DNA of 64,000 nucleotides. Source: Pontibaca methylaminivorans. GTDB taxonomy: Bacteria > Pseudomonadota > Alphaproteobacteria > Rhodobacterales > Rhodobacteraceae. Under the pieces are notes generated by a model, which saw only the letters and a list, made by a program, of their open reading frames with translations, did no database searches and was not told where the DNA came from. Below, one piece after another: positions 26,309 to 50,812 of the stretch. The stretch spans positions 124,001-188,000 of the forward strand of contig NZ_FTPS01000001.1 of NCBI RefSeq assembly GCF_900156525.1, written 5' to 3'. The position numbers and the translations under genes were made by a program. Positions within the stretch are counted from its first letter, which is position 1. Each line of letters opens with the position of its first letter.

Positions 26309-26666
26309 ACTTGACTCCACTTCCCGGCGCGCGCCGCAGCCATAAATTTCACAAACTCGTTACCTCAAGGCGTGAAACCAGATATAATCAGACAATCTCC
26401 AGCGAATCCACCTTATGCGGGAAAAATAAAAAAGGCTTCTCCCGGCGATTGCACGGGCCGCGCGCGGCGACCGGTGACGGTGCCTGGAACCCGGAACGCA
26501 ACAGCCGGCGCCAGGCGGGTTCCCCGGCAGCCCGGCAACATGATCCGGCCGGTTCGCCAGCCGAAACCCGCGGTTCAGGGCAGGTCAGGCTTGCGCCCCC
26601 GCATCCTGGTCACGTATCAGTTCCGCCAGGCCTGCCTTGAATTTTTCTTGGAAAGACATTTGCCAT
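26309..26666. promoter_or_regulatory. Divergent intergenic region between NRPS and methyltransferase genes
   Basis: This 358-base stretch separates two divergent genes and should carry promoters for both. Its first third is AT-rich (for example AAAAATAAAAAAGG near 26423), unlike the GC-rich rest. Overlapping open frames here show no ribosome site or recognisable product and look like chance frames. A TATAAT box is listed separately. Confidence 0.5.
26360..26388 (+). promoter_or_regulatory. Possible promoter with perfect -10 box
   Basis: TATAAT at 26383-26388 is preceded, after 17 bases, by TTACCT at 26360-26365, a weak -35. It points toward the methyltransferase gene about 280 bases downstream. 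AT-rich sequence makes a chance match possible. Confidence 0.3.
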
Positions 26667-30403: not shown

Positions 30404-30427
30404 GCGATCTCCTCCTTTGAGTAGCAA

Positions 30428-33082: not shown

Positions 33083-33434
33083 GTGAAATATCTTGTCTTT
33101 TCAGCGTCTTGCATTTCATCTGCGCTGCTCGAAGCGGGGTGAGCACGCATGGCCTGACCAATGTTACCGGAAACAACCCCTGTGGGGTCGCAAGGTTTTT
33201 GCCGGCTGTCAAGGCTGGCTCCGCCCCGGCTCCGGGCCGGCAGACATATGCGTTTCCATGGGCCCGGGTCGGCCGGATCCCGCCTCTCCGGGGCCCGGGG
33301 CGCCGCCGCGGCATCCCCGCCTTGCCGCCGCGCCGCGGCCGTGCCTTGAAGCAGGGTCAAAAGCGATTATGCTGCGACTCGGCCACCCGGGGAGGTGCCG
33401 CGAAAAAATGCGCAGATCGAGCGGTGTTCATCAC
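33083..33434. other. Divergent intergenic region, no gene seen
   Basis: This 352-base stretch lies between divergent glycosyltransferase genes. Frames open here lack ribosome sites and recognisable products. A small hairpin, ACCCC-TGT-GGGGT, lies near 33176. Regulatory sites for the two gene sets are expected here but none is clear. Confidence 0.45.
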
Positions 33435-33974
33435 ATGAAAGACAATCTGGAAATCGGCTCCGATGCGGGCGTCAATCACACGCTGCAGATGCTCAGGGAT
33501 GGCTCGTCGAAAGGTGAAATCACCCACAAGACCGAGATCGCGCCGGGCCTGTTTCTTCTTGCCGATCCGCGGTTTTCGCATGTGGGCGGGGGATATGCCT
33601 CACCAAACGGGCGCCTGCTGGAACTTGACGTAAAACCCCGGGGCGACGGCGAATGGATCGGGCTGCATCTTTCGCTTTCGATGACCAATCTGGCGGATAA
33701 GGGCGTTCTTGGATTTGCCTGCCGGACTGCGGCGCCGGAGCTCATGATCATGCGCGCCTGTGTTCGGTCGGGAACTGAATCAAGATTTACGGACGCGTTT
33801 TTCGACAAGCATATCCTGGTTCAGACCGAGGAAGCGACCCATCTGGATGCCCTGCCTCTTTACCGGCAAACCGGATTGCTTCCGGTTCGGGCCGCATGGC
33901 GCGAACTTGTGTTCTTTCTGCCAACCCGCGGTTTTCAACTTTCCCTGATAGACCTTCGCGTCTTTGCGGTATGA
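33435..33974 (+). CDS. Hypothetical protein of the polysaccharide island
   Basis: A 179-residue soluble protein, not recognised. Its beta-rich sequence (GLFLLADPRFSHVGGGYA, GEWIGLHLSLSMTNLADKGVLGFAC, FQLSLIDLRVFAV) looks like a jelly-roll or carbohydrate-binding fold, but that is a guess. The stop overlaps the start of the next glycosyltransferase gene (ATGA), so it belongs to that operon. Start choice is uncertain: ATG at 33435 or at 33411, the latter with GGAGGTG at longer spacing. A glycan-related role is inferred from position. Confidence 0.6.
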   Translation: MKDNLEIGSDAGVNHTLQMLRDGSSKGEITHKTEIAPGLFLLADPRFSHVGGGYASPNGRLLELDVKPRGDGEWIGLHLSLSMTNLADKGVLGFACRTAAPELMIMRACVRSGTESRFTDAFFDKHILVQTEEATHLDALPLYRQTGLLPVRAAWRELVFFLPTRGFQLSLIDLRVFAV

Positions 33975-34945
33975 GCTGCACGCTTGTCATTCCAACCCGA
34001 AACGATACGACCAATCTGAAGCGGCTGCTGGAGCAGGCGTTCCACATGAAATGCTTTGCCCGGGCAATCGTGGTCGATGACGCGTCCGATTCCCCGCTGA
34101 GCCCCGAACTCTGCCTTCTGGAGCGGCCGGACTGGGTTCACCTTACCCGGCATGAAAATCGAAAAGGGGCGGGTGCGGCGCGCAATCTCGGGCTTCAATT
34201 TGTCGAAACCTCCCATCTTCTGTTTTTTGACAGCGATGACCTGCTGACGCCGGAAATCCCGCATCTTTTAGCCGATCTTGACGGGCGGGAGTTCGACTTC
34301 TGCATTTTCAAACATAATGACAGCCGCGTGAGCGCGGCCGGGTCATGGGGGCAAACCCGATGGGACGAGGCGCTGTGGCGGCACGCCGGTGTTGCGGTCG
34401 GCGCCTTGCGGCCGGTATCGCCATCCTCCGCCCCAACGCTGGCGCGAACCGCGAATTACCCCTGGAACAAGATCTATCGGACAGATTTTCTGCGCGATAA
34501 TGGGCTGCGTTGTTCGGAAACGCTGGTGCATAACGACATTCTTCTGCATTGGGCCAGCTTCATTCGTGCCCGGGATATTCTCTCGTCGGATCGCATTGCT
34601 GCTATCCATCATGTCGGCCTGAAATCCGGTCGGCTGACCGATCATTCGGGGCCTGAACGACTGGCGGTTTTCAATATTTTACGCGATGTTCTAAACACGG
34701 AAATCCCCGGGGACCGAAACTTTTTCGCGGCCTTTCTGGGATTTGCCAGTTACCTGTTCGGCTGGATCCGCGGGGTTATCGCCCCGTCTCAACAACCGGC
34801 GCTCGATGCGCAAATCCGGCAGTTTCTGCTGGCCGCGCTGTCGCCGGGCGACTATCGTAACCTGACCGTTTCGGACCCGGTCCTTGCGCTGCGGATCAAC
34901 CTGCAGCTTGCGGAAACGCGCAGAGCAGGGGCTGGCACATCATGA
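33971..34945 (+). CDS. Family 2 glycosyltransferase
   Basis: A 324-residue GT-A protein. CTLVIPTRNDTTNLKRLLEQA opens the fold, then IVVDDASDSPLSPE and HLLFFDSDDLLTPEIPHLL with the DSDD metal motif, and NKIYRTDFLRDNGLRC in the acceptor region. It should transfer a sugar from a nucleotide sugar onto a surface polymer in the cytoplasm. The ATG overlaps the previous stop (ATGA) and its own stop overlaps the next start (ATGA), so three genes are coupled. Its GC content is lower than the tol block, consistent with an acquired island. Confidence 0.88.
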   Translation: MSCTLVIPTRNDTTNLKRLLEQAFHMKCFARAIVVDDASDSPLSPELCLLERPDWVHLTRHENRKGAGAARNLGLQFVETSHLLFFDSDDLLTPEIPHLLADLDGREFDFCIFKHNDSRVSAAGSWGQTRWDEALWRHAGVAVGALRPVSPSSAPTLARTANYPWNKIYRTDFLRDNGLRCSETLVHNDILLHWASFIRARDILSSDRIAAIHHVGLKSGRLTDHSGPERLAVFNILRDVLNTEIPGDRNFFAAFLGFASYLFGWIRGVIAPSQQPALDAQIRQFLLAALSPGDYRNLTVSDPVLALRINLQLAETRRAGAGTS

Positions 34946-35955
34946 CCATTTGCTTTATCCTGATCGACACCGGGCCCGGCCTGGAAGACAGCGGACATTC
35001 CCTCAACCCTTTGCTGCAGGCGGGCGATCAGGTTCTGGTTCTCGCGGAGTCCGGTTCAGCAAAACCACGTTTTCCGGCATTGAATGACGCGATCGAAACT
35101 GGCCATATTGCCATCTCCGACACGGATATGATGAACCCCGATCTTTGGGCCATGGTCGCGCGAACGCATGGGAAAGCGGATGTTTCGATGTTCCTGCGGG
35201 CCGGCGATCTGATTTGTGCGGAAGCCCTTGATTCTCTGCGGACATGGATCTCGGACCAAGCGGGCAGCGCGGATGTGATTGTCGTGAACCGCGCCTTTTC
35301 TCTGGTGGGCGAACATGTGACATTTCCCTGCCCGGATGCGCCGCGCTGGCCGGATGGGGGCGGGGAAGGCAGGACATCGGCGCTTCGGCTGATGGCCGAC
35401 CCGGCGCGTCTTGTTCTATCCCGGACTTATCTGGAAAGCACCGATTTTCCACGGAATTGTCCGAATGCAACGTGGTATGACGAGGTGATCCAGGCTGCCG
35501 ATACCATAGGGCTGTTTCCGGATCCCGTCGTTTTGACAAGGCCGACACAAAGCACTGCGGAAACAATGCTGCAGCATCTGGATGAGGCCATAAGCGCACG
35601 CAACGGGGAAAGGACCGATATCGCGGCCCTGCGGCTCAATGATCAGCTTTCATTGCTTGAACCGGATGAATTGGCAGGGTTTACAGACCGGGCGAATGAT
35701 TTGTTCCGGCGTGTTCCGCGGCGGGTCCGCAAAAGGCTCTGCCTGTTGCCGGGGATCAGCGGTGCGCTTTTTTCGGCCATGAGAGAAGGCGGAAAGTTCG
35801 CGGCAATCGGTCTGCTGCTGCTTGCGAACTCCGACCGTCAACGCAGGCGGCTCGACGCGCTGTCGCACGAGGTGAACCGGCTGCGCTCGGATCTGAACGC
35901 AGCCCTGCCGGGCCCCGAATACCTGCAATTGATGCACGAAATGGTGCGGCAATAG
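34942..35955 (+). CDS. Divergent glycosyltransferase-like protein
   Basis: A 337-residue protein. The first 100 residues resemble a GT-A fold (MTICFILIDTGPGLEDSG, VSMFLRAGDLICAEALDSL), but the DxD motif is degenerate (RAGD), so it may be inactive or use another metal site. The C-terminal part has a helical region and ends with LDALSHEVNRLRSDLNAAL, a short coiled coil like those on other polysaccharide-enzyme tails. It overlaps the previous gene (ATGA). The name is tentative. Confidence 0.65.
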   Translation: MTICFILIDTGPGLEDSGHSLNPLLQAGDQVLVLAESGSAKPRFPALNDAIETGHIAISDTDMMNPDLWAMVARTHGKADVSMFLRAGDLICAEALDSLRTWISDQAGSADVIVVNRAFSLVGEHVTFPCPDAPRWPDGGGEGRTSALRLMADPARLVLSRTYLESTDFPRNCPNATWYDEVIQAADTIGLFPDPVVLTRPTQSTAETMLQHLDEAISARNGERTDIAALRLNDQLSLLEPDELAGFTDRANDLFRRVPRRVRKRLCLLPGISGALFSAMREGGKFAAIGLLLLANSDRQRRRLDALSHEVNRLRSDLNAALPGPEYLQLMHEMVRQ

Positions 35956-35976
35956 CACCATCACGCAGGCGCCGGA

Positions 35977-37152
35977 TCAGTCGCTGCCGAACAGGTCGCG
36001 GGTATAGAGTTTCTCGGAATAGCCCTCGAGGTCAGAACTGTTCCGGTTCGCGACAATGACATCAACGCCGTTGCGGAATGCATCCAGATCGCGCATGATC
36101 GGGGAGCCGAAAAAGCTTTCGTCCTCCATGGCGGGCTCATAGATCCAGATTTCCACGCCCTTCGCCCGCAGCCGCTTCATGATGCCCTGAATGGCGCTTT
36201 GGCGGAAATTGTCGGATCCGGCTTTCATGACAAGCCTGTAAATCCCGACAACGCGGGGCTTTCGCGCCAGTATGTCGTCGGAAATGACGTCCTTGCGGGT
36301 TCGATTGGCATCGACAACGGCCGCAATCAGATTTTGCGGAACGTCACGGTAATTGGCAAGCAATTGCTTGCTGTCCTTGGGCAGGCAATAGCCACCATAA
36401 CCAAAGGAAGGATTGTTGTAATGGTCGCCGATACGCGGATCAAGGCAGACGCCCTTGATGATCTGGCGCGTATCCAGTCCCTGCGTCAATGCATAGCTGT
36501 CGAGTTCGTTGAAATAGGCGATGCGCAGCGCGAGATATGTATTCGCAAACAGCTTGATCGCCTCGGCCTCGGTCGATCCCGTCAAAAGGATTTCGACATG
36601 TTCATCAAGAGCGGAATCCTTGAGAAGATTGGCGAAATCCTCGCCGCGCTGGCTGTTTTCTCCGACGATGATCCGCGACGGGTGCAGGTTGTCATGCAGG
36701 GCGCGGCCTTCGCGCAGAAATTCCGGGCTGAAGATCACCTGCTGCGTGCCGAGCCGCTCTGAAACATGGCGTGTGAATCCGACCGGCACGGTCGATTTCA
36801 CGATAATAACCGCCTCGGGGGCAATTTCCTTTGCTTGCGCAATGACCGTTTCAACGCTTGAAGTATCGAAGTAATTGGATACCGGATCATAATTCGTCGG
36901 CGTGGCGACAATGATGTAATCCGCGCCGTCAAAGGCTTCGGTCACGTCGGTGGTGGCGGTCAGATCAAGCTGGTTTTCGCTCAGATAATGGACGATATCC
37001 GCATCGACAATCGGGCAGCGGCGTGCATTCAGAAGCTCGACCTTATGCGGGTCAACGTCCAGCGCCCGAACCCGGTTGCGCCCGGCCAGCAATACCGCGC
37101 TCGACAGCCCGACATAGCCGATACCGGCGACTGCAATCGTCTTTCCTGCCAT
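35977..37152 (-). CDS. ugd: UDP-glucose 6-dehydrogenase
   Basis: A 391-residue nucleotide-sugar dehydrogenase that oxidises UDP-glucose to UDP-glucuronate with two NAD+, supplying precursors for acidic surface polysaccharide. The NAD motif is [17 protein letters not shown]. Then come [12 protein letters not shown]-like [28 protein letters not shown] and the catalytic cysteine in [19 protein letters not shown]. The length is like E. coli Ugd (388). The ATG follows AAGAGGTTTCG. It ends the island and is divergent from the giant repeat-protein gene across a 605-base gap. Confidence 0.97.
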
Positions 37153-37757: not shown

Positions 37758-40700
37758 GTGAAGAAATATGGTCTCGGCATGCCCGGCTGGATGGCCGTGC
37801 TGGTTTTCGTGTTGTCGGGTGCGGCGGCCCAGGCGCAGGATCTGACGCTCAACATCAGCGATACCGGCTTCGACCCGGTGCCGGCGGGCGGTACGATCGA
37901 ATATTCCGTGCGCCTCCAGAACGGCGGCAACAGCCGCTCGGCCGCGGATGTGCTGACTTTCGCGATTCCCGCGGGTGCGGCCTACTGGGGCGCGGCGGGC
38001 GACCTCGAGGGCTGTTCACCGGCGCCGGTCCTGCAGGGGCCGGCCAGTGTCAGTTGCCCGGTTCCCGAACTTGCACCGCGTGCCGAACTGCGGGGCACCG
38101 TTCATCTGGCCCCGGCCGAGGCGGGGGTCACCACGTTCGGCGGCACGATCGGAACCACCACCATCACCGAGGATACGACCGTTACCACCGGTGCCGATCT
38201 CGGGCTCGATTTCGATGCGCCGGCCGATATCCGCGCCGGAGAGTTTCTGACCTTCGCGGCCGTCATCACCAATAACGGGCCTTACCCGAGCGAGGGCACG
38301 CGCCTCACGGTGCCGCTGCCGCCGGCGCTGTCCAGCGACGTCACGCTCCCGTCCGGCTGCGCGATCAGCGGCAACGAGATCACCTGCGACATCGCCGGGC
38401 CGATCGCGGTCGGGAACGATGTGCGGCTTGAATTCACGACCCAGATCCTGACCGCCGACGCCTCGAGCGTCTCGGTCGCCGGTTCACTGTCCAGTTCGCA
38501 GCCGGCCGATTCCGATCTCAGCAATGACGAGAACGCCTTCGTGATCGCCATCAGCCCGGGCACCGACGTGCGGCTTGGCAAGGCGCGCGCGCCTTCGGGG
38601 CTGCTCTATGTCGGGCAGCCGGTGACCTTCACGCTGAGCCCCGATTTCGTTGGCGATGCACCGCTTGATGCCCAGATCACCGACGATCTGCCCGCGAATT
38701 ACGAATTCACAAGTGTCAGCCCGTCGGGGGCCGGCTGGATCTGCAATGACACGAACCCCGTTGGCTGCAGTTATTCCGCGACCGCGCCCGATCCGGCCGG
38801 TTTCCGCGCCCCGATCACCATAACCGCCGTGCCGATCAGTGAGAGCCCGGCCGGTGCGCCGGTCGTGAACACCGCGGTGATCGCGTCGAGCCTTGATCTG
38901 GTGGCGGACAACAACAGCGCCTCGGATGGGGGCGCCGATATCGTCCTGCCGACGACCGATCTCGTGGCCGAGAAATCCGGCCCGGCCCACGGGCTCGTGA
39001 CGGTCGGCAACGAATACGACTGGCGGATCGGCACGCGCAACGACGGCAACATCGGTTTCACCGGCCGCCTTGTGCTGACCGACCGCCTGCCGGAGGGGTT
39101 GCGGGCCACTGCGATCGGGGCGCCTGCGGGCTGGGCCTGCGCGCCGGGGGTGCCGCTGAACGGCCCGGCTGAAATCCGCTGCGAGACCGACAATTACGCC
39201 GCGACGCCGCTGCCGGTCGGCGGCCAGACGCCGCGCATCACCATCACCACCGAAGTGCTGGCCGAGGGCCGGCTCGACAATGAATTGCAGGTCGGCTTCA
39301 CCGACGAGACCTATCCCGACCGCGACATGAGCAACAACAGCATCACCCGCGGTGTGACCTCGGGTGACGGCACCACCGTTGGCATCGCCGATCTTGTGCT
39401 GGTCAAGACGGTTGCCGATCCGGGACCCCATGTGGCGGGAGAACCCGTTCGGTTCACGGTGGAGGTGAGCAACAGCGGCCCCGGAACCGCCGGGGACGTG
39501 CGTGTGCTCGACCGCCTGAGCGATCTCTACTTCGCCGATTCCACCACCACGGGCGTGACCCTCGACACGGTACCGGCCGATGCGGTCTGTACCGTCACCC
39601 GCGGCTCCGGCTTCTATAGCGACCTTGCCTGCACGATTGATGAACTGCCGGCGGGGGAAACGCGCAGCATCAGCTTTACCGCGCTCGCCGGCGGCAACGC
39701 CGGCACGCGCACCAACACCGCCGAGACCTATTCCACGGCGACCCCCGACCCGGATTATGCGAACAACACGGATAGCGTGACTTACGGCGTTGCGGCGCGC
39801 ACCGATGTCACCGTGGCCAAGACCGCATCTCATGCCGCCGGAAGCGACGTTCAGGCCGGGCAGCGGCTGCGTTATATCCTTTCGGCCAGCGTTCCCGCGA
39901 ACGGGCTGTCGTCGGCTGAAGATGTGATCGTGACCGACCGGCTTCCGGCGGGGCTCAAGTTCGTTTCCGCGACGCCGTCGCAGGGGGTCTGCGACGACCC
40001 CGGCGCCACGCTCATCGACGGCTACCTGACCAGCAGCGTGACCGAGCTCCGCTGCAACCTCGGCACCATCACCAACGGCAATACCCAGTCGGTCGAGATC
40101 GTGGTGGCGCCGACGACGCAGCTCGTTTCGCAGGAGATCGAGAACCGGGTCGGGGTCGAGACCTCGACGCCCGAGATCGACGACACCAACAATGCCGACG
40201 CGATCACCCACCGCGTCACGGCGCCCGCGCTCGACCTCATCACCAACAAGACCGACGATCCCGACCCGCTCGAGATCAATACGCCGACGATCTATACGGT
40301 CACGGTGCGCAATGCCGGCCCGTCCGAGGCGTTCAACCTCGTGATCACCGACACGCTGCCCGACGCGGGCATGCGCTATGACGGCATTGTGGACGCGGGC
40401 GGCATGGCCTGTTCCGAGCAGGATGGCGCGGCCGTCGGCAGCATCGGCGGCAGGCTGGCCTGCACCCTGCCCAATCTCGAGGTCGGCGCCACCGCGACGC
40501 TCCGCGTGCAGATGACCGGTGTGCAGCGCGGACACTGGGTGAACCATGTCGAGGCGCGCTCGGACGAATATGGTCACGAGGCAATCACCGCGAACAACGC
40601 GGTCAGCGAGGCGACATCCGTTTTCGAGCGCTCGAACCTTGCCGTGACCAAGGCGCCCTCGCGCCCGGTGGTCGACCTGGGCGAGGAGTTCGACTGGATC

Positions 40701-43700
40701 ATCACCGTCGAGAACCGCACCGCCGCCGGGATCGGGCTGGCCGAAAACGTGGTGCTGCGCGACATGCTCCCGGCCGGGATGGTGATCAGCGATGCGGTGC
40801 AAACCAGCGGCGGCAGTTGCGACGCACCGACCGGCGGGCGCAGCCTGGTCTGCGTGCTGCCCGACATGGTCGCCGGCGAAAGCCATGTCGTGACGGTGCC
40901 GGTGCGGGTCACGTCGATCAGTGCCAACCCGCAGGACGTCGCCAACAGCGCCAGCGTCGAGACCGATTCCTTTGACGACGACGAGTCCGACGACACCGGC
41001 AGCGGCACCGTCGCCGTGCTCTCGACCGGCGTGTCCGGCACCATCTGGCGGGATTTCAACGAGGACGATCTTCGTGACGGCAATGACAGCGGCATCGGCG
41101 GCCTGACCGTCCGCCTGAGCGGCACCGACGCCTGGGGCAATCCTGTCCCCGCCCGGACCGCCACCACCGATGCGAGCGGGAACTACAGCTTTTCACTGCT
41201 GCCGCCCGGCGAATATCGCGTGAGCTATGATCTTCCGTCGGGCGACGATTTCCTCGGCGGCAGTGCCCTGCCGGGCGCGAGCGGTGCGGCGGATGGCGCA
41301 AATGCGATCCGCACCATCACCGCAGCCACGGATGCCCCCGTCGGGAACACCGATTTCACCCTGGTCCCGCAGGAGCGGATCGCGCTCGCCAAGCAGGTCG
41401 CGGCGCCCGTGGTCCAGGCGGATGGCTCCTATCTGCTGAGCTACGAGTTCCGCATCCGCAACCTGTCGCAGGAGCCGCTGCGCGATTTCGCCCTGCGCGA
41501 CGATCTGCAGGCGGGATTCGGCACCCATACCTCTGCCGCACCGGCACCGGGGCAGTTCGCCGTGACAGGGGTCAGCGGCGCGACCATGGCCGGCGCCGAC
41601 GACGATGCGATCCATCTGACGATGCCGGGGCCGCTCGCTCCCGGGGGCGATGAGCTGGTCACGCTGGTGTTGCGGGTCAATCCCGCCCTGCCGCGCGAGG
41701 CGGCGGCGCTCGACCACGTCAATGCGGCCGAGGTCACCGCAACCGGCGTCTGGTCCGGCAAGACGCCCGGTGATGCCTCGAACGACGGCACCACGCCCCG
41801 CCATGGCGACGCCTCGCCGACCGGGGCGCCGGTGACGTTCGCGCCGGCGGTCACGCTGGCCAAGGCCGCGACCCTTGAGAACGGCGGCGGTCCGGCGCGC
41901 CCCGGTGACATCGTCCGCTATGGATTTACCGTCACCAATACCGGCAATACGCCGCTTCTGAATGTCACCCTTTCCGATCCGCTGCCCGGTCTGGTCTGGG
42001 ACAGCAACCCGGTGCTCGACCGGCTGGATGTGGGGGCTGCCGACAGCACGAGCTTTGCCGCGCATTATGTGCTGACGCAGGCCGATATCGACGCGGGCGG
42101 GGTGGACAACACCGCGCGCGTCGAGGGCCGCTGGGCCGCCGACGGGGTGCCCGATCCGGTCACGACCGCGACCGGCAGCGCCGGGATCACGGCGATCGCC
42201 GAGCCGGGCCTGGACGTGGTCAAGACCGAGGTCGCGAATACGGTTCAGGATCCGACCCGCCCGGGTGACACGATCCGTTACGAATTCACCGTCAGCAACA
42301 CCGGCAACACGGTGCTCCATGATGTGGTGCTGACCGACGATCTGCCCGGAATTGCCCCCGATCCTGCCGGCAGTTTCGTCATCGGCACGCTCTCTCCGGC
42401 GGGCGAGGGGGGATCATTGGTGACCTTTCATGCCGATTACACGGTGACCCAGGACGATATCGACGCGGGCGAGGTGATCAACACCGCCCGGGCCGCCGGC
42501 ACGCATGGGCCGGGCGACACACCGATTGCGGCGGATGCACCCCCGGTCAGGACGCCTCTCGTTCCCGATCCGCTGATGCGGGTGACCAAGCTCGTCGACA
42601 CCGCCACCGTTCCGACACCGCCACGCGCGGGCGACAGCATCGGCTGGACCGTCACGATCGAGAACATCGGCAACACCAGCCTGAGCGTCGGCACCATTGC
42701 CGAATCGCTGCCGGACGCCAGCATTACCGCGCCGGGCAGCGCGCTGCTCGCGCCGGGCGAGAACACGACCGCCGCTGTCAGCCATACGCTGACGCAGGCG
42801 GACATCGACGCCGGCGAAATCGTCAACCAGGTGACGGTTTCGGGCCGGGTGCCGGGCTCCGACACGCCGTTCCGCGACACGCCCTCGGGCAATGACCCCG
42901 ACGCGCCGAACGAGGATCCGACCGTGGTTACGCTCGACCATGCGCCCGGAATTGCCCTGCTGAAAAGCGTCATCACCGATGTTTCGGGCCCGCTGATGCC
43001 CGGCGACGCGATCACCTTCGGTTTTGCGATCCGCAACACCGGAAACGTGACGCTGCACGACCTTGTCCTGAGCGACGACCTGGCGGATGTGGTGCTCGAT
43101 GACGCCGCCCTTTCCGGGCTGAGCCTTGCCCCGGATGACGAGGTCACGGTCGCGGGCAACTATTTCCTGACCGTGGCCGACATCGAGGCCGGCGGATTCG
43201 ACAACAGCGCGACCATCACCGCGAGCGACCCCGGCGGCAGTTCGGTGACGGACCTCTCCGGCACCGGTTTCGACAATGACGGCCCGACGCGGGTCGATCT
43301 GCTCCGCGCGCCGGATGTCGCGCTGATCAAGACCATCAGCGCCGCGCCCGCCGCGCCGGCCGCCGCCGGGGACCGGATCGACTACGGGTTCGAGATCCGG
43401 AACACGGGCAATGTCGAGCTGCGCGACATCGCCCTGGCCGATCTGGTCGACGATGTCGTGATCACGGGCAGCCGGAGCGCGCCGCTGCCGGTCGGCGACA
43501 GCGACAGCACGAGCTTTACCGGCAGCTATACGCTGACCCAGGATGACATCGACGCCGGTGTTTTCGCGAATACCGCGCAGGTCACGGGCCTCGGCACCGG
43601 GTCGGGCGGCGAGGCGCGGCCGGTTTCGGACATGTCCGGCACGGATGCGGACAATGACGATGCGACGCTGTTCGTGATCGACCCGTCGCCCTCGCTTTCC

Positions 43701-46700
43701 ATCACCAAGGCCGCCGATGACGGCGCGCTCGGCACCCCGCCGCGGGCCGGTGACGAGATCACCTACAGCTTTACGCTCACCAACACCGGCAACGTGACGC
43801 TGAGCAACGTGATGGTAAGCGACCCGCTGCCGGGGCTGCTGTTCGCGGAAGACACGATCACAGCCCTTGCGCCCGGAAGTTCCGGTGTGCTCACGGCGAC
43901 CTATGCCCTGACCCAGACCGATATCGAGGCCGGAGAGGTCAGGAATCGCGCGAGTGTGAGCGGCGATTACGACGATCCGGCGAGCGGCGACACGGCGAGC
44001 GCGAGCGCCGATTCGAACGAGGTCGAGGTGACGCTGCAGCAGGAGCCGGGGCTCGCCGTGGTCAAGACGGCGCAGCCGCAATGGAGCGGTGCGGCATCGC
44101 CCGGCGCCCGTATCTCTTATGAATTCACGGTGACGAACACCGGCAACGTGCGGCTTCAGGATGTGACTCTGACCGATCCGCTGCCGGGGCTTGAGACGGG
44201 CACCTGGACCCTCGGCGCGATGGAGCCCGGAGCGGAACAGGTGGTCGCGACCATCTATGAACTGACCCAGGAAGACATCGACGCGGGCGAGGTGGTCAAC
44301 CAGGCCGAGGCGAACGGGCGTTTCGGAACCACCCCGGTGAGCGACCGCTCCGGCCCCGATGCGGAGAGTAACGAGGAAACCGTCGTGCCGCTCGAACAGG
44401 CGCCGGGCCTGCTGCTGGAAAAGACGGCCGATGCCTCGGGCCTGACCGATCCGGCCGTGGTCGGCGAAGAAATCGCCTACAGCTTCGTCGTCACCAACAC
44501 CGGCAACGTGACCCTGCGCGACGTTATCGTCACCGACACGCTGCCGGGGCTCGCGCCCCAGACCCTGCCGGTCGGAGAGCTTGCCCCCGGCGCGAATGTG
44601 ACTGTCGGGCCTGCGATCTATGCGATCATGCAGGCGGACATCAACGCCGGCGCGGTGGAAAACCGCGCAAGCGTGAGCGGCACCTATGGTCCGCCCCATG
44701 ATCCGCGCTCCCACGAGGCGGCATCGCGCAGCGAAAGCGGCGTCGACGGGCCGACCGTGATCCCGGTTGCCGGCCGCCCCGGGATTGCGCTGATCAAGGA
44801 GCTTGCGCCCGGGACTGATGCCGAAAACCTGCGCCTTGGCGACGAGATCCGCTGGGTTTTCACAGTGGCGAATACCGGCAACGTGCCGCTTGGAAATGTC
44901 ACGATCACCGAAGAGATGGTCTCGGCCGTCGTCTCGGGCGGGCCGGTTGCGCTCGATGTGGGGCAGGCGGATAGCACGAGCTTTACCGCGTCGCATGTCA
45001 TCACCCAGGCCGATCTCGATGCCGGGGAGATCGAAAACCGGGCGCGGGCGCGGGGTTCCTTCGATGCCGGGCCGGGCGATCCGGCCATGGTCGAGGATAC
45101 ATCGGGCAGCACGTTCGACAATGATGAACCAACGGTCACGCCGCTTGGCCAGCGCCCGGCCATCGATCTGGTCAAGACCGCTGACACGTCAAACCTTTCG
45201 ACACCGCCGCAGGCCGGGGAGCTGATCCGATACGGATTCACCATCACCAACAGCGGCGAAGTGACCCTGAGCGGGGTGACGCTGGATGATGTGATGCCCG
45301 GGCTCGAACTCGCCGGTGCGCCGATCGCGAGCCTTGCCCCCGGCGCTTCCGATGCCACGAGCTACAGCGCGACCTATGCGCTCACGCAGGAGGATATCGA
45401 CAGCGGCGCCACGCTCGAGAACCGGGCCGAGGTGAGCGGCAGCTATACCGACCGCGACGGAAATCCGCAGCAGGTGAACGCGCTGTCGGCAACCGATGGC
45501 GGCGTGGAGGGGCCGACCACGGTCATGGTCGACCGCGCGCCGGGGCTTGAACTCGTCAAGACCGCGGATCGCTCGGGCGTCTCCGAAACGGCGCTGCCCG
45601 GCGAAACCGTCACCTATGAATTCGCGCTGACCAACACCGGCAACGTGACGCTCCATGACCTGAGCATCGACGACCCGCTGCCGGGGCTTGTCCTGCTGGG
45701 CGCGCCCATCGCGAGCCTTGCCCCGGGCGAGACCTCGCATGCGATCACCGGCACCTATGCGCTCACGCCCGAGGATATCCGCGCGGCGGAACTCGACAAC
45801 ACCGCCCGGGCACATGCGTTCTGGCGGCCCGAAGGCGCGCCGCCGGTCCCGGTCGCGAGCGATGACTCCTCGGTCACCGTGCCGCTCGGCTATCCCGAGA
45901 TCGCCCTTGATATCACGGTCGGTGAACTCCGCGATGTGAACGGTGACGGCATCATGGGGCCCGCAGACCTCGTGTTCTTCCGCTTTGAGGTGACCAACAC
46001 GGGCACCGTTCCGCTGAACGACGTGAATATCGACGGCGCGAGCCTGTCGCTGCTGCTGCCCGGGCTCCTCTGCACCCCGATCACGCTTGCCCCGGGCGAG
46101 AGCGCTTTCCTCGACTGTTCGGGCGGGGGCTATGCGATCACGCCGGCGGATGCCGGGCGCGGGCAGATCAGCCTTGCGGGCGATGCGACCGGCAGTTCGG
46201 ACGCGGGCGTCGTGGTCCGGTCGAGTTCGGCGGCGATCAGCTTTGCCGAAATCGCGCAGGGCGGCGTCACCATCGAAAAGATCGCCGGGATCGAAACGGC
46301 GATGATCGGCGATCTCGTTCCCTACACGATCACCATTCGCAATTCGGCCGGTGGAGTCGCGATCACCGCCCGGGTGGAAGACATGCTCCCCGCCGGTTTC
46401 AGCTATCGCGCGGGCTCGGCCCGGCTCGACGGGGTGCCGCTCGATGCGGTCGAAAACGGCCGCCGGCTCGGCTTCGGGCCGATCACGGTCGAACCGGGGC
46501 AGAGCCGGGCGCTCACCCTGTCGGCGCGCGTCGGCGGCTCGGTGCGGCCCGGCGCGCACGAGAACCGCGCGCGGCTGCTCAGCACGCTCACCGGGCGCGA
46601 CATCGCGCCCGAGGCCCGGGCCACGGTGCGGGTGCTCGCCGATGCGGTGCTGCAATGTGCAACCGTGCTTGGCCGCGTGTTCGACGACCCGGACCAGAAC

Positions 46701-47237
46701 GGCCACATGAGCGCCGCCGCGCAGGAACGCGGCCTGCCCGATGTGCGGCTCATCGCGCCGAACGGGCTCGCGATCCTGACCGACGAACACGGCCGTTACA
46801 GCGTGCCCTGCGCGGCGCTGCCCCGGGCGGTGGGCTCGAACTTCATGCTGAAGCTCGACGAGCGCACCCTGCCTGCGGGCTACCGGCTGACCACCGAGAA
46901 CCCGCGCGTGGTGCGGCTGACGCCCGGCATGATCACGCGGCTCGATTTCGGCGCGACACTGGCCCGCCTCGTGCGCGTCGATCTGGCCGCGAATGCCTTT
47001 GACCGAGGGCAGATCGGCGCCGGCCTCGACCAGGGCCTGCATGACCTGGTGGCCGAGATCGAGGGGAGGGCGGCGATGCTGCGCGTCACCTATGTGCTCG
47101 AAGCCGGTGAACCCGAGGCCGAGGCGCAGACGCGCCTGCGGCAGGTCGAACGCCGCCTGCGCGATCTCTGGCGCGACGCGGGCCGATACAAGCTCAACAT
47201 CGAGACCCTCGTGCAGCGGGCGGGAGAAGTGAAATGA
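37758..47237 (+). CDS. Giant secreted DUF11-repeat surface protein with SdrD-B-like domain
   Basis: A 3159-residue protein with a signal peptide (WMAVLVFVLSGAAAQAQD). About eight DUF11-type repeats fill residues 30-1090 (DRLPAGL, DTLPDAG signatures). An SdrD-B-like domain at about 1092-1205 has FNEDDLRDGNDSG, a Ca-binding-type motif. Eleven more closely related repeats span about 1365-2712. The end (from about 2965) has FDDPDQNGHM and RYSVPC, a carboxypeptidase-regulatory-like domain, then a charged helical tail. It is probably an extended filament on the cell surface or in the periplasm. No sortase or autotransporter signal is seen. Its stop overlaps the next gene by four bases, tying it to a beta-barrel partner. 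The GTG start follows CAGGAG. Confidence 0.9.
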   Translation: MKKYGLGMPGWMAVLVFVLSGAAAQAQDLTLNISDTGFDPVPAGGTIEYSVRLQNGGNSRSAADVLTFAIPAGAAYWGAAGDLEGCSPAPVLQGPASVSCPVPELAPRAELRGTVHLAPAEAGVTTFGGTIGTTTITEDTTVTTGADLGLDFDAPADIRAGEFLTFAAVITNNGPYPSEGTRLTVPLPPALSSDVTLPSGCAISGNEITCDIAGPIAVGNDVRLEFTTQILTADASSVSVAGSLSSSQPADSDLSNDENAFVIAISPGTDVRLGKARAPSGLLYVGQPVTFTLSPDFVGDAPLDAQITDDLPANYEFTSVSPSGAGWICNDTNPVGCSYSATAPDPAGFRAPITITAVPISESPAGAPVVNTAVIASSLDLVADNNSASDGGADIVLPTTDLVAEKSGPAHGLVTVGNEYDWRIGTRNDGNIGFTGRLVLTDRLPEGLRATAIGAPAGWACAPGVPLNGPAEIRCETDNYAATPLPVGGQTPRITITTEVLAEGRLDNELQVGFTDETYPDRDMSNNSITRGVTSGDGTTVGIADLVLVKTVADPGPHVAGEPVRFTVEVSNSGPGTAGDVRVLDRLSDLYFADSTTTGVTLDTVPADAVCTVTRGSGFYSDLACTIDELPAGETRSISFTALAGGNAGTRTNTAETYSTATPDPDYANNTDSVTYGVAARTDVTVAKTASHAAGSDVQAGQRLRYILSASVPANGLSSAEDVIVTDRLPAGLKFVSATPSQGVCDDPGATLIDGYLTSSVTELRCNLGTITNGNTQSVEIVVAPTTQLVSQEIENRVGVETSTPEIDDTNNADAITHRVTAPALDLITNKTDDPDPLEINTPTIYTVTVRNAGPSEAFNLVITDTLPDAGMRYDGIVDAGGMACSEQDGAAVGSIGGRLACTLPNLEVGATATLRVQMTGVQRGHWVNHVEARSDEYGHEAITANNAVSEATSVFERSNLAVTKAPSRPVVDLGEEFDWIITVENRTAAGIGLAENVVLRDMLPAGMVISDAVQTSGGSCDAPTGGRSLVCVLPDMVAGESHVVTVPVRVTSISANPQDVANSASVETDSFDDDESDDTGSGTVAVLSTGVSGTIWRDFNEDDLRDGNDSGIGGLTVRLSGTDAWGNPVPARTATTDASGNYSFSLLPPGEYRVSYDLPSGDDFLGGSALPGASGAADGANAIRTITAATDAPVGNTDFTLVPQERIALAKQVAAPVVQADGSYLLSYEFRIRNLSQEPLRDFALRDDLQAGFGTHTSAAPAPGQFAVTGVSGATMAGADDDAIHLTMPGPLAPGGDELVTLVLRVNPALPREAAALDHVNAAEVTATGVWSGKTPGDASNDGTTPRHGDASPTGAPVTFAPAVTLAKAATLENGGGPARPGDIVRYGFTVTNTGNTPLLNVTLSDPLPGLVWDSNPVLDRLDVGAADSTSFAAHYVLTQADIDAGGVDNTARVEGRWAADGVPDPVTTATGSAGITAIAEPGLDVVKTEVANTVQDPTRPGDTIRYEFTVSNTGNTVLHDVVLTDDLPGIAPDPAGSFVIGTLSPAGEGGSLVTFHADYTVTQDDIDAGEVINTARAAGTHGPGDTPIAADAPPVRTPLVPDPLMRVTKLVDTATVPTPPRAGDSIGWTVTIENIGNTSLSVGTIAESLPDASITAPGSALLAPGENTTAAVSHTLTQADIDAGEIVNQVTVSGRVPGSDTPFRDTPSGNDPDAPNEDPTVVTLDHAPGIALLKSVITDVSGPLMPGDAITFGFAIRNTGNVTLHDLVLSDDLADVVLDDAALSGLSLAPDDEVTVAGNYFLTVADIEAGGFDNSATITASDPGGSSVTDLSGTGFDNDGPTRVDLLRAPDVALIKTISAAPAAPAAAGDRIDYGFEIRNTGNVELRDIALADLVDDVVITGSRSAPLPVGDSDSTSFTGSYTLTQDDIDAGVFANTAQVTGLGTGSGGEARPVSDMSGTDADNDDATLFVIDPSPSLSITKAADDGALGTPPRAGDEITYSFTLTNTGNVTLSNVMVSDPLPGLLFAEDTITALAPGSSGVLTATYALTQTDIEAGEVRNRASVSGDYDDPASGDTASASADSNEVEVTLQQEPGLAVVKTAQPQWSGAASPGARISYEFTVTNTGNVRLQDVTLTDPLPGLETGTWTLGAMEPGAEQVVATIYELTQEDIDAGEVVNQAEANGRFGTTPVSDRSGPDAESNEETVVPLEQAPGLLLEKTADASGLTDPAVVGEEIAYSFVVTNTGNVTLRDVIVTDTLPGLAPQTLPVGELAPGANVTVGPAIYAIMQADINAGAVENRASVSGTYGPPHDPRSHEAASRSESGVDGPTVIPVAGRPGIALIKELAPGTDAENLRLGDEIRWVFTVANTGNVPLGNVTITEEMVSAVVSGGPVALDVGQADSTSFTASHVITQADLDAGEIENRARARGSFDAGPGDPAMVEDTSGSTFDNDEPTVTPLGQRPAIDLVKTADTSNLSTPPQAGELIRYGFTITNSGEVTLSGVTLDDVMPGLELAGAPIASLAPGASDATSYSATYALTQEDIDSGATLENRAEVSGSYTDRDGNPQQVNALSATDGGVEGPTTVMVDRAPGLELVKTADRSGVSETALPGETVTYEFALTNTGNVTLHDLSIDDPLPGLVLLGAPIASLAPGETSHAITGTYALTPEDIRAAELDNTARAHAFWRPEGAPPVPVASDDSSVTVPLGYPEIALDITVGELRDVNGDGIMGPADLVFFRFEVTNTGTVPLNDVNIDGASLSLLLPGLLCTPITLAPGESAFLDCSGGGYAITPADAGRGQISLAGDATGSSDAGVVVRSSSAAISFAEIAQGGVTIEKIAGIETAMIGDLVPYTITIRNSAGGVAITARVEDMLPAGFSYRAGSARLDGVPLDAVENGRRLGFGPITVEPGQSRALTLSARVGGSVRPGAHENRARLLSTLTGRDIAPEARATVRVLADAVLQCATVLGRVFDDPDQNGHMSAAAQERGLPDVRLIAPNGLAILTDEHGRYSVPCAALPRAVGSNFMLKLDERTLPAGYRLTTENPRVVRLTPGMITRLDFGATLARLVRVDLAANAFDRGQIGAGLDQGLHDLVAEIEGRAAMLRVTYVLEAGEPEAEAQTRLRQVERRLRDLWRDAGRYKLNIETLVQRAGEVK
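41850..45890 (+). repeat. Eleven tandem DUF11-type repeats coding for about 115-127 residues each
   Basis: Each unit carries TNTGN, then DPLPGL-like, then LTQADIDAG-like motifs. The LTQxDIDAG variants begin near 42072, 42447, 42789, 43168, 43531, 43909, 44262, 44626, 45001, 45382 and 45760, giving a spacing of about 342-381 bases. Recurrent DNA such as GACAGCACGAGCTTTACCG suggests duplication by recombination. Confidence 0.9.
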
Positions 47238-50200
47238 AACAGGTGACCGTCTCTGCATGGACTTTGATCGGGGCGCTGGCCGGAACCACCGCGGTGACGG
47301 CGCTGCTGGCCGGCCCGGCGCGGGCCGGGGACGGCTGCGACCCGGGTGCGGCCGTCATCACCGCCGCCTGCGCCCATCCGAACGCCGGAACTATGGTGCA
47401 CCGCCCGGCTCCCGCCAATGTCTCGAACGAGGCGGGGCCGCCGCTCGGCGAGGCCGGGTTCTCGATCTCGATCGACAGTGTCGAGGCCGGGCCGGGCGCC
47501 CTGCCGCGCACCATCGCCGGCGCGCCCGCGCGCCCGCAGGATTTGCGCGAGGTCGACCGGTTGCTCGACATCGCAGGGGTTGATCTGACCTATGACGGGC
47601 TCGGCGCGCGGCCGCGCCTGGCCATCGCCACCGCCGATCTGCGCGAGGGCTTCACCGCGGGCGAGCGCGTGACCTTCCGCGCCTCGAGCAACTATCCCGC
47701 CTGGATTTCCCGGGCCGAAGTGGTGATCACCGACCGGCGCGGGCGCAGCCAGGCAACCCTGCCGATCGCCGCGAATGGCGAAGCCGGCTGGATCATGCCC
47801 GCCGATGGCCCGCAGGATTATCTTTATCATCTGCGGGTCGAGGATGCAGAGGGGCGGCGCGACGTGACCCGCAGCCTGCCGCTCGCCCGGACCGCCAGCC
47901 GCGAGGAACCGGCCCTGACCGGTCCGGTTGCGGCCGCCGCCGAGGGCGACGACATGACCGCAAGGCGGGGCATCCCGGTCCGGGGCGGGGCGGTGACCGT
48001 TTCGGGGCAGGCACAAGGCGGGCAGCGCGTGCGGGTGCTCGGCGAGGCCGTGCCGGTCGATCCCGCGGGGCGCTTCGTGGTGCAGCGCATCCTGTCGCCC
48101 GGCGCCCATGCGGTGGCGATCTCGGTCGATGGGCGGGACTTCGACCGCGCCGTGACCATCGAGGAATCCGAATGGTTCGCAACCGGTATCGTCGACCTTT
48201 CCGTCGGCCGCGACCGGGCCGGAACCTGGCGGATGGGCCGGATCGCCGGGTTCGCGCAGGGCACGCGCGCCGACGGCAGCCGCATCACCGCCTCGGTCGA
48301 CACGCGGGAGGCGGAACTGCGCGACCTTTTCCGCAACTTCGGCCGCAAGTTTCCCGACCAGACGCTGCGCGAGATGGATTCGCAGGACGTGTTCAACACT
48401 TTCGGCGACGATTCCCGCATGAGCGAGCTTGCGCCAAGCTCCGGGCGCGTCTTTCTTCGGTGGGAGCGCGACGGCAGCCATCTGCAATGGGGCGATTTCA
48501 AGCCGCGCGAATCGACCGCGCTCACGGTGCGCACGGAACGCGCGCTTTACGGCGCATCGGGGGAGCATCGCTCGCTCGACGTCACGAACGAGGGCGAAAG
48601 CCGCCTGCGGTTCAGCGGATTCGCAGCACAGGCCGAGAGCCTGATGCAGCGCGACGTGCTGCGCGCGACCGGCGGCAGCGCCTATTTCCTTTCGCGGCAG
48701 GACATTATCGCCGACAGCGAAAGCGTCATGGTCGAGCTGCGCTCGCGCCGCACCGGGCTCGTCGTCGAAAGCCGCCGCCTGTCCGAGGGCACCGACTACC
48801 GCCTGAACCCGGTGCAGGGCGTCATCATCCTGAACGCGCCGCTGTCGTCATCGGCCGCGGGCGAGGGGCTGATTTCGGCCAGCCCGCTGGGCGATCACGA
48901 CGTCAACCTGGTCGCGCAATACGAATACGTGCCGGCGACGGGCAGCGTGGACGGCTACACCGCGGGGCTGCGGGGCGAATACTGGGTGAACGATTACCTG
49001 CGGATCGGTGCCTCGGGGCTGCGCGAAACCGCCGGGATCGCCGATCAGGATCTGCTCGGTGCCGATATCCTGCTGCGGGACGGCGAGCGCCGCGAACTGG
49101 CGCTGGAATACGCGGTGAGCGAGGGGCCGGGCTTCGGGTCGAGCTTTTCGCTGAACGGCGGGCTTGACCTGGAAAGCGGCGACGGGCTCACCCCGTCGGA
49201 CCCGAGTCAGGGCCTGCCCGGCCGGCGCGCCGCCTCCTGGCGGCTGGCCGGTCGCAGCGACCTCGCCCTTGGCGGGCTCACGGGCGAGATCGCGGGATTT
49301 TACGACCGCAAGGAGGCGGGGTTTTCCTCGCCCGACCATGACATTCAGCACGACCAGCGCGCCTGGGGCCTGTCGGGCGAACTGGCGCTGACCGCGCGCA
49401 CCGATCTGACCTTCGGCGCCGAGGTGCTGCGCCGCGACGACGGGCGGCGCGAGGAACTGGCGCGGATCGGGGTTGCCCATGATCTGACCGACCGGTGGCT
49501 GCTGGAAGCGGAAGTCGCCCGCGACCGGCGCGACGATGTCGCCTCGCCACAGGATTTCGGCCAGCGCACCGATGCCGGGCTGCGCCTGACTTGGACCCGC
49601 GATGAAAATCTCTCGCTCTGGGTGTTCGGGCAGGCGACGCTGTCCCATGACGCGACACGCCACGAAAACGACCGTCTCGGCATCGGCGGGCGGGTCCGGT
49701 TCGGGCCGCGCACCGATCTGACGGCCGAGGCCTCCGGCGGGAGTCTCGGCGCGGCGGGAACGCTCGAACTTGGCTATCGTCCCGATGACGACAGCCTGCG
49801 CACGATCGGGTACCGGCTGGATCCGATGCGCCGCTTCGATTCGACGGATTTCAGCGGCCGTGATCGCGGCAGCCTGGTTTTCGGCGCAAGCTCCCGGGTC
49901 AACGACCGCTGGAGCTATACCACCGAAAGCATCTACAGCGCCTTCGGCACCCGGCCCTCGCTCACCTCGGGCTATGGGGTCAGCTATACGCCCGATCAGC
50001 GCTGGCGCTACGACGCGCGGCTGCAATATGGCGAAACCACCGAATCGGACGGCACCGGCCTGAAACGGCGGGGCATTTCCCTGGGCACGCGCTTTGCCGA
50101 GGGCAAGGCCACCGCCGCCGGCCTGCGCGGCGAGTGGAGAAACGATGATTCGAACCGCCCCGACAATGAACTTGATCGGGATACATGGCTGGTTTCCGGC

Positions 50201-50812
50201 TATTACGAGACGAAGCTGAACCAGAACTGGCGCTTCGTTTCCTCGCTCGATGCGGTGTTTTCCGACAGTGACCAGTCGTCGTTCCGCGACGGGCGCTATG
50301 TCGAAGCGCGGCTCGGCTATGCCTGGCGGCCGGTGGCCGATGATCGCGTGAACGCGCTGCTGAGCTATACCTATCTTTACGACATGCCGGGGCCGGACCA
50401 GGTGAACTTTGACGGAGAGATCGCGGGGCCGCGCCAGAAAAGCCATATCGTCAATGCCGCGATCAACTGGCAGGCCGATCCGCTCTGGACGCTCGGGGCG
50501 AAATACGGCTTCCGGATGCGCCGCGCGGCGGAGCGCAGCAGCAGCGATTTCACCCGCAGCGAGGCCCACCTTGCGGTGCTGCGCGCCGATTATCACGTCG
50601 TCCACAACTGGGATCTGATGGGTGAGATCCGTACGCTTTACACGCCCGGCTCCGCAACGCGGGAGAATTCGGCACTGGTCGGCATCTACCGCCTGTTCGG
50701 GGACAATCTGCGGCTCGGCGCGGGCTATCTCTGGGGCAAGGTATCCGATGACCTGCGCACCATCGACAACCCGAACCGGGGGGTGTTCGTGAACCTCACA
50801 TCGCAGTTCTGA
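47234..50812 (+). CDS. Large outer-membrane beta-barrel partner of the DUF11 protein
   Basis: An 1192-residue protein with a signal peptide (WTLIGALAGTTAVTALLAGPARAG). The N-terminal 420 residues are periplasmic with beta-sandwich-like parts (GITVRGGAVTVSGQAQGGQRV-type repeats). The rest alternates polar and aromatic residues (YLRIGASGLRETAG, SVNDRWSYTTESIYSAF, LNQNWRFVSSLDAVF) and ends in NLTSQF, the terminal Phe that marks barrel proteins inserted by BAM. The ATG overlaps the DUF11 gene stop (ATGA). A secretion, anchoring or receptor role for the giant protein is inference. No plug domain or TonB box was recognised, so it may not be a classical TonB-dependent receptor. Confidence 0.88.
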   Translation: MKQVTVSAWTLIGALAGTTAVTALLAGPARAGDGCDPGAAVITAACAHPNAGTMVHRPAPANVSNEAGPPLGEAGFSISIDSVEAGPGALPRTIAGAPARPQDLREVDRLLDIAGVDLTYDGLGARPRLAIATADLREGFTAGERVTFRASSNYPAWISRAEVVITDRRGRSQATLPIAANGEAGWIMPADGPQDYLYHLRVEDAEGRRDVTRSLPLARTASREEPALTGPVAAAAEGDDMTARRGIPVRGGAVTVSGQAQGGQRVRVLGEAVPVDPAGRFVVQRILSPGAHAVAISVDGRDFDRAVTIEESEWFATGIVDLSVGRDRAGTWRMGRIAGFAQGTRADGSRITASVDTREAELRDLFRNFGRKFPDQTLREMDSQDVFNTFGDDSRMSELAPSSGRVFLRWERDGSHLQWGDFKPRESTALTVRTERALYGASGEHRSLDVTNEGESRLRFSGFAAQAESLMQRDVLRATGGSAYFLSRQDIIADSESVMVELRSRRTGLVVESRRLSEGTDYRLNPVQGVIILNAPLSSSAAGEGLISASPLGDHDVNLVAQYEYVPATGSVDGYTAGLRGEYWVNDYLRIGASGLRETAGIADQDLLGADILLRDGERRELALEYAVSEGPGFGSSFSLNGGLDLESGDGLTPSDPSQGLPGRRAASWRLAGRSDLALGGLTGEIAGFYDRKEAGFSSPDHDIQHDQRAWGLSGELALTARTDLTFGAEVLRRDDGRREELARIGVAHDLTDRWLLEAEVARDRRDDVASPQDFGQRTDAGLRLTWTRDENLSLWVFGQATLSHDATRHENDRLGIGGRVRFGPRTDLTAEASGGSLGAAGTLELGYRPDDDSLRTIGYRLDPMRRFDSTDFSGRDRGSLVFGASSRVNDRWSYTTESIYSAFGTRPSLTSGYGVSYTPDQRWRYDARLQYGETTESDGTGLKRRGISLGTRFAEGKATAAGLRGEWRNDDSNRPDNELDRDTWLVSGYYETKLNQNWRFVSSLDAVFSDSDQSSFRDGRYVEARLGYAWRPVADDRVNALLSYTYLYDMPGPDQVNFDGEIAGPRQKSHIVNAAINWQADPLWTLGAKYGFRMRRAAERSSSDFTRSEAHLAVLRADYHVVHNWDLMGEIRTLYTPGSATRENSALVGIYRLFGDNLRLGAGYLWGKVSDDLRTIDNPNRGVFVNLTSQF

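Follow-up and report, generated by a model that had tools for sequence, protein, structure and literature searches.

A 64,000-nucleotide stretch of the Pontibaca methylaminivorans genome (contig NZ_FTPS01000001.1, positions 124,001 to 188,000; hereafter the window) contains two overlapping forward-strand genes, which encode a giant repeat protein of 3159 amino acids (aa) and a large outer-membrane barrel protein of 1192 aa. Sequence comparisons across proteobacterial genomes, in which the pairing is widespread, give good support to these proteins being a dedicated pair. We propose, at a probability of about 0.6, that they constitute one cell-surface adhesin module, with the giant forming a fiber and the barrel serving as its translocon or anchor. 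The features of the locus are listed below by window coordinates.

37758-47237, forward: giant repeat protein of CLIPPER type (DUF11/DUF7507), 3159 aa, a putative fibrillar adhesin (Pfam)
37758-37838, forward: probable Sec signal peptide of the giant, cleavage after AQA at about residue 27 (read by eye)
41040-41252, forward: internal SdrD_B (CnaB-like) domain, residues 1095-1165 (PF17210, 54 bits)
46662-46949, forward: CnaB/SdrD_B-like domain near the C-terminus of the giant, residues ~2969-3064 (in 9 of 9 aligned giants)
46941-47234, forward: C-terminal beta-alpha-beta-alpha-beta domain, distantly OmpA-like, the signature of most such giants (model with predicted local distance difference test score, pLDDT, of ~64-90; profiles)
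47234-47237, forward: ATGA, overlap of the barrel start codon and the giant stop codon (sequence read)
47234-50812, forward: large outer-membrane barrel protein, 1192 aa, C-terminal Phe (Pfam, alignment)
47234-47326, forward: probable Sec signal peptide of the barrel protein (read by eye)
47579-48163, forward: N-terminal beta-sandwich (Ig/CnaB-like) region, residues 116-310, probably periplasmic (low-confidence model, weak Pfam matches)
48185-50809, forward: predicted transmembrane barrel with an unsettled number of strands, residues 318-1192 (low-confidence model, Pfam, hydrophobic alternation)

The open reading frame (ORF) of the giant starts with GTG and that of the barrel protein with ATG. 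Both lie where a first-pass annotation of the same sequence had placed them, and the ATGA overlap and terminal Phe that it described were verified.

Conservation of the pair across genomes

A profile of nine barrel sequences (A1) was searched in overlapping samples of genomes from the same class, phylum and family, where it matched 13 of 385, 58 of 398 and 47 of 295 genomes, respectively. No more than two barrel candidates were scored per genome, so that copy numbers are lower bounds, and neighborhood stretches were taken for a chosen subset of the matches. We classed a barrel ORF as full-type if its summed score reached at least 500 bits, its length was at least 900 aa and it did not lie at an edge; short fused relatives, described below, were excluded from pair counts. 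A giant, recognized by a match to its C-terminal profile, precedes 54 of 58 full-type barrel ORFs at a distance of no more than 2 kb and on the same strand, and in 51 of the 58 the giant lies within 100 bases of the barrel ORF or overlaps it. The identical two-gene order in dozens of loci indicates that the pair is not a product of chance, although the 58 barrels are not independent events, since they include close kin (L147 and L148; L139 and L140, from one genus) and fragmented loci (L022, L024). The first-pass annotation had raised the prospect that the genes would be apart in most relatives; this was tested and did not occur.

The two proteins also co-occur. A profile of the giant's C-terminal domain (A5), with up to 17 candidates scored per genome, detected the domain in 30 of the 295 family genomes, and every one of these belongs to the 36 genomes that match a full-type barrel, counting fragments (hypergeometric p ~2e-35, a value that ignores shared ancestry). 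Eleven further family genomes match the barrel profile through the short fused type alone. Of the six family genomes with a full-type barrel and no C-terminal domain, two have the barrel at a contig end (G023, G905), two contain short barrel pieces with an internal TAG (G620, G855), and one contains a 144-aa barrel piece (G600). A longer profile detected a giant in G600 and none in G023, G620, G855, G905 or the sixth genome, G894, whose barrel is a 901-aa frame. Two family genomes carry a second copy of the C-terminal domain on another contig with no full-type barrel match adjoining (G797:C62, G935:C212). In G153 and G346, which have two giants and one full-type barrel found, one barrel may serve more than one fiber, or a second barrel may have been missed. 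Together with the linkage and a natural fusion described below, this co-occurrence bears out the earlier suggestion that the barrel is a dedicated partner of the giant.

Giant length varies widely, from 180 to 4788 aa (median 2802; coefficient of variation, CV, 0.41; n = 40 giants, counting broken ones and leaving out those at an edge), whereas barrel length is nearly constant (CV 0.11). Sequence distances among giants and among barrels are correlated over 47 pairs (Mantel r 0.88, with 0 of 2000 permutations as high; shared species history is not removed from this value). The four-base overlap of the window is found in 17 of the 54 linked pairs. It had been read as stoichiometric coupling; coupled translation is what such an overlap suggests, and a 1:1 ratio goes beyond what four shared bases show.

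Four named examples illustrate the layout. In the betaproteobacterium Eleftheria terrae, an 'SdrD B-like domain-containing protein' is followed by an 'OmpA family protein', and both match our profiles. On a conjugative plasmid of Sinorhizobium meliloti T073 (NZ_CP021807), a 'DUF11 domain-containing protein' precedes a 'hypothetical protein', and in Vibrio campbellii a 3771-aa DUF11 protein precedes the barrel. Among barrels of the plasmid collection, Paracoccus alcaliphilus has the one closest to the window's (76% identity); on its plasmid (L208:10934-17483), a 203-aa ORF matching the giant's end stands directly before a full-length barrel gene, with two transposase genes (IS110, IS5) upstream, and the giant seems to be broken. 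Plasmids of the cyanobacteria Kovacikia minuta and Synechococcus sp. NIES-970 encode weak partial relatives of the barrel (28-30% identity over 21-35% of the query).

The module looks accessory, being present in a minority of family genomes. In the genome that contains the window, the search detected one barrel copy, on the largest contig. Two other genomes of the genus were searched; the barrel is absent from one, and in the second it lies on a different contig from the one matching the gene downstream of the window pair, which encodes a Dus family tRNA-dihydrouridine synthase. Promoter and terminator scans gave nothing above chance, and no family reached threshold in an Rfam scan. Upstream of the pair, the window contains genes of surface-polysaccharide type (29060-37152; glycosyltransferases, a TupA-like ATP-grasp protein and a UDP-glucose dehydrogenase family protein) and, on the reverse strand, a gene for a protein resembling a single-module nonribosomal peptide synthetase (22268-26320; condensation, AMP-binding, PP-binding and thioesterase domains).

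Domain architecture of the giant and barrel proteins

Pfam assigns 15 DUF11 and 13 DUF7507 stretches to the giant, covering nearly the whole protein; as the families are related, a DUF11 and a DUF7507 stretch may overlap, and these counts are not to be added. By our own reading of the repeat spacing, the stalk comprises some twenty domains. The families have been renamed CLIPPER and CLIPPER_2 and are described as the stalk of fibrillar adhesins (PMC12617251; this and the other papers cited by PMC identifier are used for the portions of their text available to us). The same paper reports a Lys-Asn isopeptide bond in a solved domain and lists the positions of the Lys, Asp and Asn residues involved. 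Among 17 window repeats selected by the Lys motif, the Asp is kept in 15 and the Asn in 16, a count that covers Lys-motif repeats alone. In a sample repeat starting at residue 1978, the hand-counted distances from the Lys are 38 and 79 residues, compared with 40 and 80 in the DUF7507 example of PMC12617251. Isopeptide bonds are predicted for the repeats of the giant.

Nine giants align well over their last 300 residues, which consist of the end of a stalk repeat, the CnaB-like domain and a final segment of ~95 residues whose fold is predicted as beta-alpha-beta-alpha-beta. In a PDB sequence search, this C-terminal profile matches an SdrD B repeat best, though weakly (E 0.0016), and the remaining 39 rows are chance matches of Hsp70 type. 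Pfam's OmpA model does not match the window giant. Giants of five more distant relatives supply an intermediate domain that matches OmpA at 90% probability and the window-type domain at 89%; a merged set matches OmpA at 91%. On the strength of these intermediate profiles we term the last domain distantly OmpA-like. A model of the last 300 residues (pLDDT 69) was compared with known structures by Foldseek and VIA-align, and the resulting rows span mainly residues 1-204 (the Ig-like and CnaB-like parts), barely probing the last 95 residues. The CLIPPER structure 9ifr ranks 13th by Foldseek and has a VIA Z of 6.4; one VIA row, a UspA protein, spans residues 204-300 (Z 6.4). OmpA is absent among the rows shown, few of which reached the last 95 residues. 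The first-pass annotation had noted that the giant lacks autotransporter and sortase features and had called its route to the surface unexplained; it missed the anchoring-type C-terminus, in which a CnaB-like domain is followed by a distantly OmpA-like one.

The barrel protein resembles described families only faintly. On Pfam, Porin_4 and BBP2 fall below their cut-offs and Phenol_MetA_deg lies slightly over its own (24.4 versus 22 bits); NCBIfam and a PDB sequence search give no match. Families of plug, POTRA, autotransporter and usher type are absent from the window protein at E<=1, a setting at which HMMER's filters drop most matches above ~0.1. Strands of alternating hydrophobicity outnumber those in shuffled sequences at each of three cuts (34 versus 21.1, 23 versus 10.9 and 17 versus 4.8), yet this excess yields no reliable strand number. 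The best blocks of the Ig-like region are modeled at pLDDT 50-73, and one or two of the nine aligned barrel proteins show weak CarboxypepD_reg, Glucodextran_B and Big_13 matches there.

In one locus (L099), a single frame joins DUF11/DUF7507 repeats and SdrD_B to the C-terminal domain (660-946), followed by the barrel (958-2079); no signal peptide is visible at the junction, and the N-terminus lies beyond the contig. A single 4545-aa frame at another locus (L143) ends in one DUF11 domain, a CnaB-like part and a barrel. We rejected it as a long-stalk fusion, as Pfam finds only the one DUF11 domain and most of its length belongs to no stalk family.

A shorter fused subfamily (~1.6-2.4 kaa), present in many genomes, is related and has a different layout. 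In L131, L135 and L145 (also L021, L133, L134, L144 and L146), the short fused protein joins a CnaB-like part to a barrel. Ahead of it stand small proteins, at least one per locus (~160-250 aa, and from 330 to ~1000 aa), with apparent signal peptides and similar ends (FQVTVD/FRVKVN). This arrangement may represent a separate multi-gene surface system.

Comparison with described systems

The closest parallels are OmpA-anchored CLIPPER adhesins of Proteobacteria, which share with the window giant a great length, a tandem CLIPPER stalk and, as far as the distant profile link holds, an OmpA-like C-terminus. The window giant differs from them in its degenerate OmpA-like domain, the CnaB-like domain before it and the barrel gene that follows. 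OmpA-like ends and DUF11 stalks are reported for Proteobacterial fibrillar adhesins with CshA/B_NR2-like domains (PMC10952558), and one OmpA-ended CLIPPER adhesin is given for Acinetobacter (Acinetobacter silvestris B9T28_05395; PMC12617251). In their available portions, PMC12617251 and PMC10952558 mention no barrel partner, and the terms 'outer membrane', 'operon' and 'secret-' each occur 0 times in PMC12617251; the available portions of PMC8286594 and PMC9210967 likewise name no such partner. The barrel is described nowhere in the open-licence PMC literature we searched, and a description elsewhere is possible. The first-pass annotation knew of no described system with this pair; OmpA-ended DUF11 adhesins are, however, already in print (PMC10952558, PMC12617251), and half of the pair is therefore of a known kind.

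The proposed logic of a giant adhesin with a partner barrel, its C-terminus held and its N-terminus outside, is by analogy that of CdrA/CdrB (type Vb secretion). TpsB barrels are smaller than the ~870-residue barrel region of the window protein. POTRA/Omp85 is absent from the barrel protein, and the two-partner secretion (TPS) domain from the giant (Pfam, E<=1). According to PMC7616799, CdrA is held by its C-terminus in the pore of its partner and has its adhesive tip at the N-terminus. Classical autotransporters (type Va) have the passenger N-terminal to the barrel, as in the natural fusion; they differ in that stalk and barrel are here mostly encoded by two genes, and neither PF03797 nor IAT_beta is among the matches of the window proteins or the nine aligned members.

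Type 11 secretion (T11SS/DUF560) also combines an outer-membrane protein with a co-encoded cargo, the cargo being described as ending in a beta-barrel domain (PMC12282271); no DUF560-type (Slam) match occurs in the window barrel or the nine aligned members. We rejected the giant as a T11SS cargo: the co-occurring domain in the consulted portion of PMC12282271 is DUF1194, with DUF11 mentioned only as found together with it. Brucella papers retrieved as DUF11 literature were set aside for a similar reason, the domains in their available text being DUF1134, DUF1176 or DUF1192. The type 9 secretion signals Por_secre_tail/CHU_C and the SprA protein are not among the matches of the window proteins (Pfam, NCBIfam).

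Proposed mechanism and alternative explanations

The pairing and occasional fusion suggest that the barrel carries or holds the giant at the surface. A constant giant end and a constant barrel, combined with a giant of variable length, are the layout expected of a variable fiber on a fixed export or anchoring base. Beyond the pair, its linkage, its fusion and its domain make-up, all read from sequence, we infer that the giant is displayed at the surface, carries isopeptide bonds, docks in the periplasm and is translocated through the barrel. The giant would be exported by Sec; some twenty Ig-like domains would make up its stalk and intramolecular Lys-Asn isopeptide bonds would harden it, while its CnaB-like and OmpA-like C-terminal domains would remain on the periplasmic side. 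The barrel would insert through the beta-barrel assembly machinery (BAM) by means of its C-terminal Phe signal, and its N-terminal Ig-like domains, facing the periplasm, would receive the giant's C-terminus. The stalk would then pass out through the barrel or be held in it.

Several observations weigh against this adhesin module. Four of the 58 full-type barrels lack a preceding giant (one has a giant directly downstream, and three have one on another contig). No known adhesive domain is found among the Pfam matches of the giant, where a tip of a new kind is possible. A model of the barrel built from four sequences is not usable (mean pLDDT 38). Compared directly with OmpA domains that 17 proteins of nearby genomes contain, the C-terminal domain gives a weak profile match (14% probability), so that the OmpA link rests on the intermediate profiles. 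Three of the 54 linked giants (L104, L106, L108) and the one from Vibrio campbellii match only as far as the CnaB-like part, with the OmpA-like domain undetected, which suggests that this domain is dispensable in some systems. Finally, no feature distinguishes a pore from a mere anchor.

This last point leaves room for an explanation that we consider unlikely and still worth weighing, namely that the barrel is solely an outer-membrane anchor or base, on which the giant docks after crossing by another route. Three relatives, one from the window's class and two from its phylum (L098, L137, L155), bear two to three Pfam OmpA domains, an anchoring feature, at the N-terminus of the barrel protein. 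Giant and barrel are unlinked in three genomes, and two of these three, G153 and G346, have two giants per full-type barrel found, where a second barrel may have been missed among the two candidates scored. The Eleftheria terrae plasmid (L209:20251-29113) carries genes resembling those of type II secretion, ~2.8 kb downstream of the pair; in the annotated records of Paracoccus alcaliphilus and Sinorhizobium meliloti, no other secretion system adjoins it. The order of the fusion, in which the stalk comes before the barrel, is in keeping with passage of the stalk through the barrel.

A giant that remains periplasmic, as a scaffold linked to peptidoglycan and tied by the barrel to the outer membrane, is less probable still. 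OmpA-like ends usually bind peptidoglycan, and surface display is unproven by sequence. Chains of DUF11/DUF7507 domains are, however, described as stalks of surface adhesins (PMC12617251, PMC10952558), and whole-looking giants range from ~740 (L138) to 4788 aa (L115), a spread that we would judge ill-suited to a fixed periplasmic gap. That the barrel is an ordinary TonB-dependent receptor with a fortuitous DUF11 neighbor, as the first-pass annotation had considered and as 7 of 22 plasmid records matching the barrel are labeled, is very improbable and was rejected, given that Plug and TonB_dep_Rec are absent from all nine aligned members (E<=0.01) and from the window protein (E<=1) and that the pairing and fusion are not accidental.

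Returning to the adhesin module, we tentatively suggest a bolder form of it, one in which we place rather less than even confidence. The barrel family could be an undescribed, Omp85-independent translocon for isopeptide-stapled fibers, following a two-gene route with autotransporter-like order in Alpha-, Beta- and Gammaproteobacteria, and could explain how many DUF11 adhesins arrive at the surface. Were this so, the question would arise whether export of the stalk must precede closure of its Lys-Asn bonds. The open literature consulted does not tell how long CLIPPER-stalk adhesins of Proteobacteria cross and are retained at the outer membrane, and the co-encoded barrel is a concrete candidate for this role. 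The barrel is conserved across many genera and partly labeled as a TonB receptor, and its recognition would correct the annotation of a large outer-membrane family.

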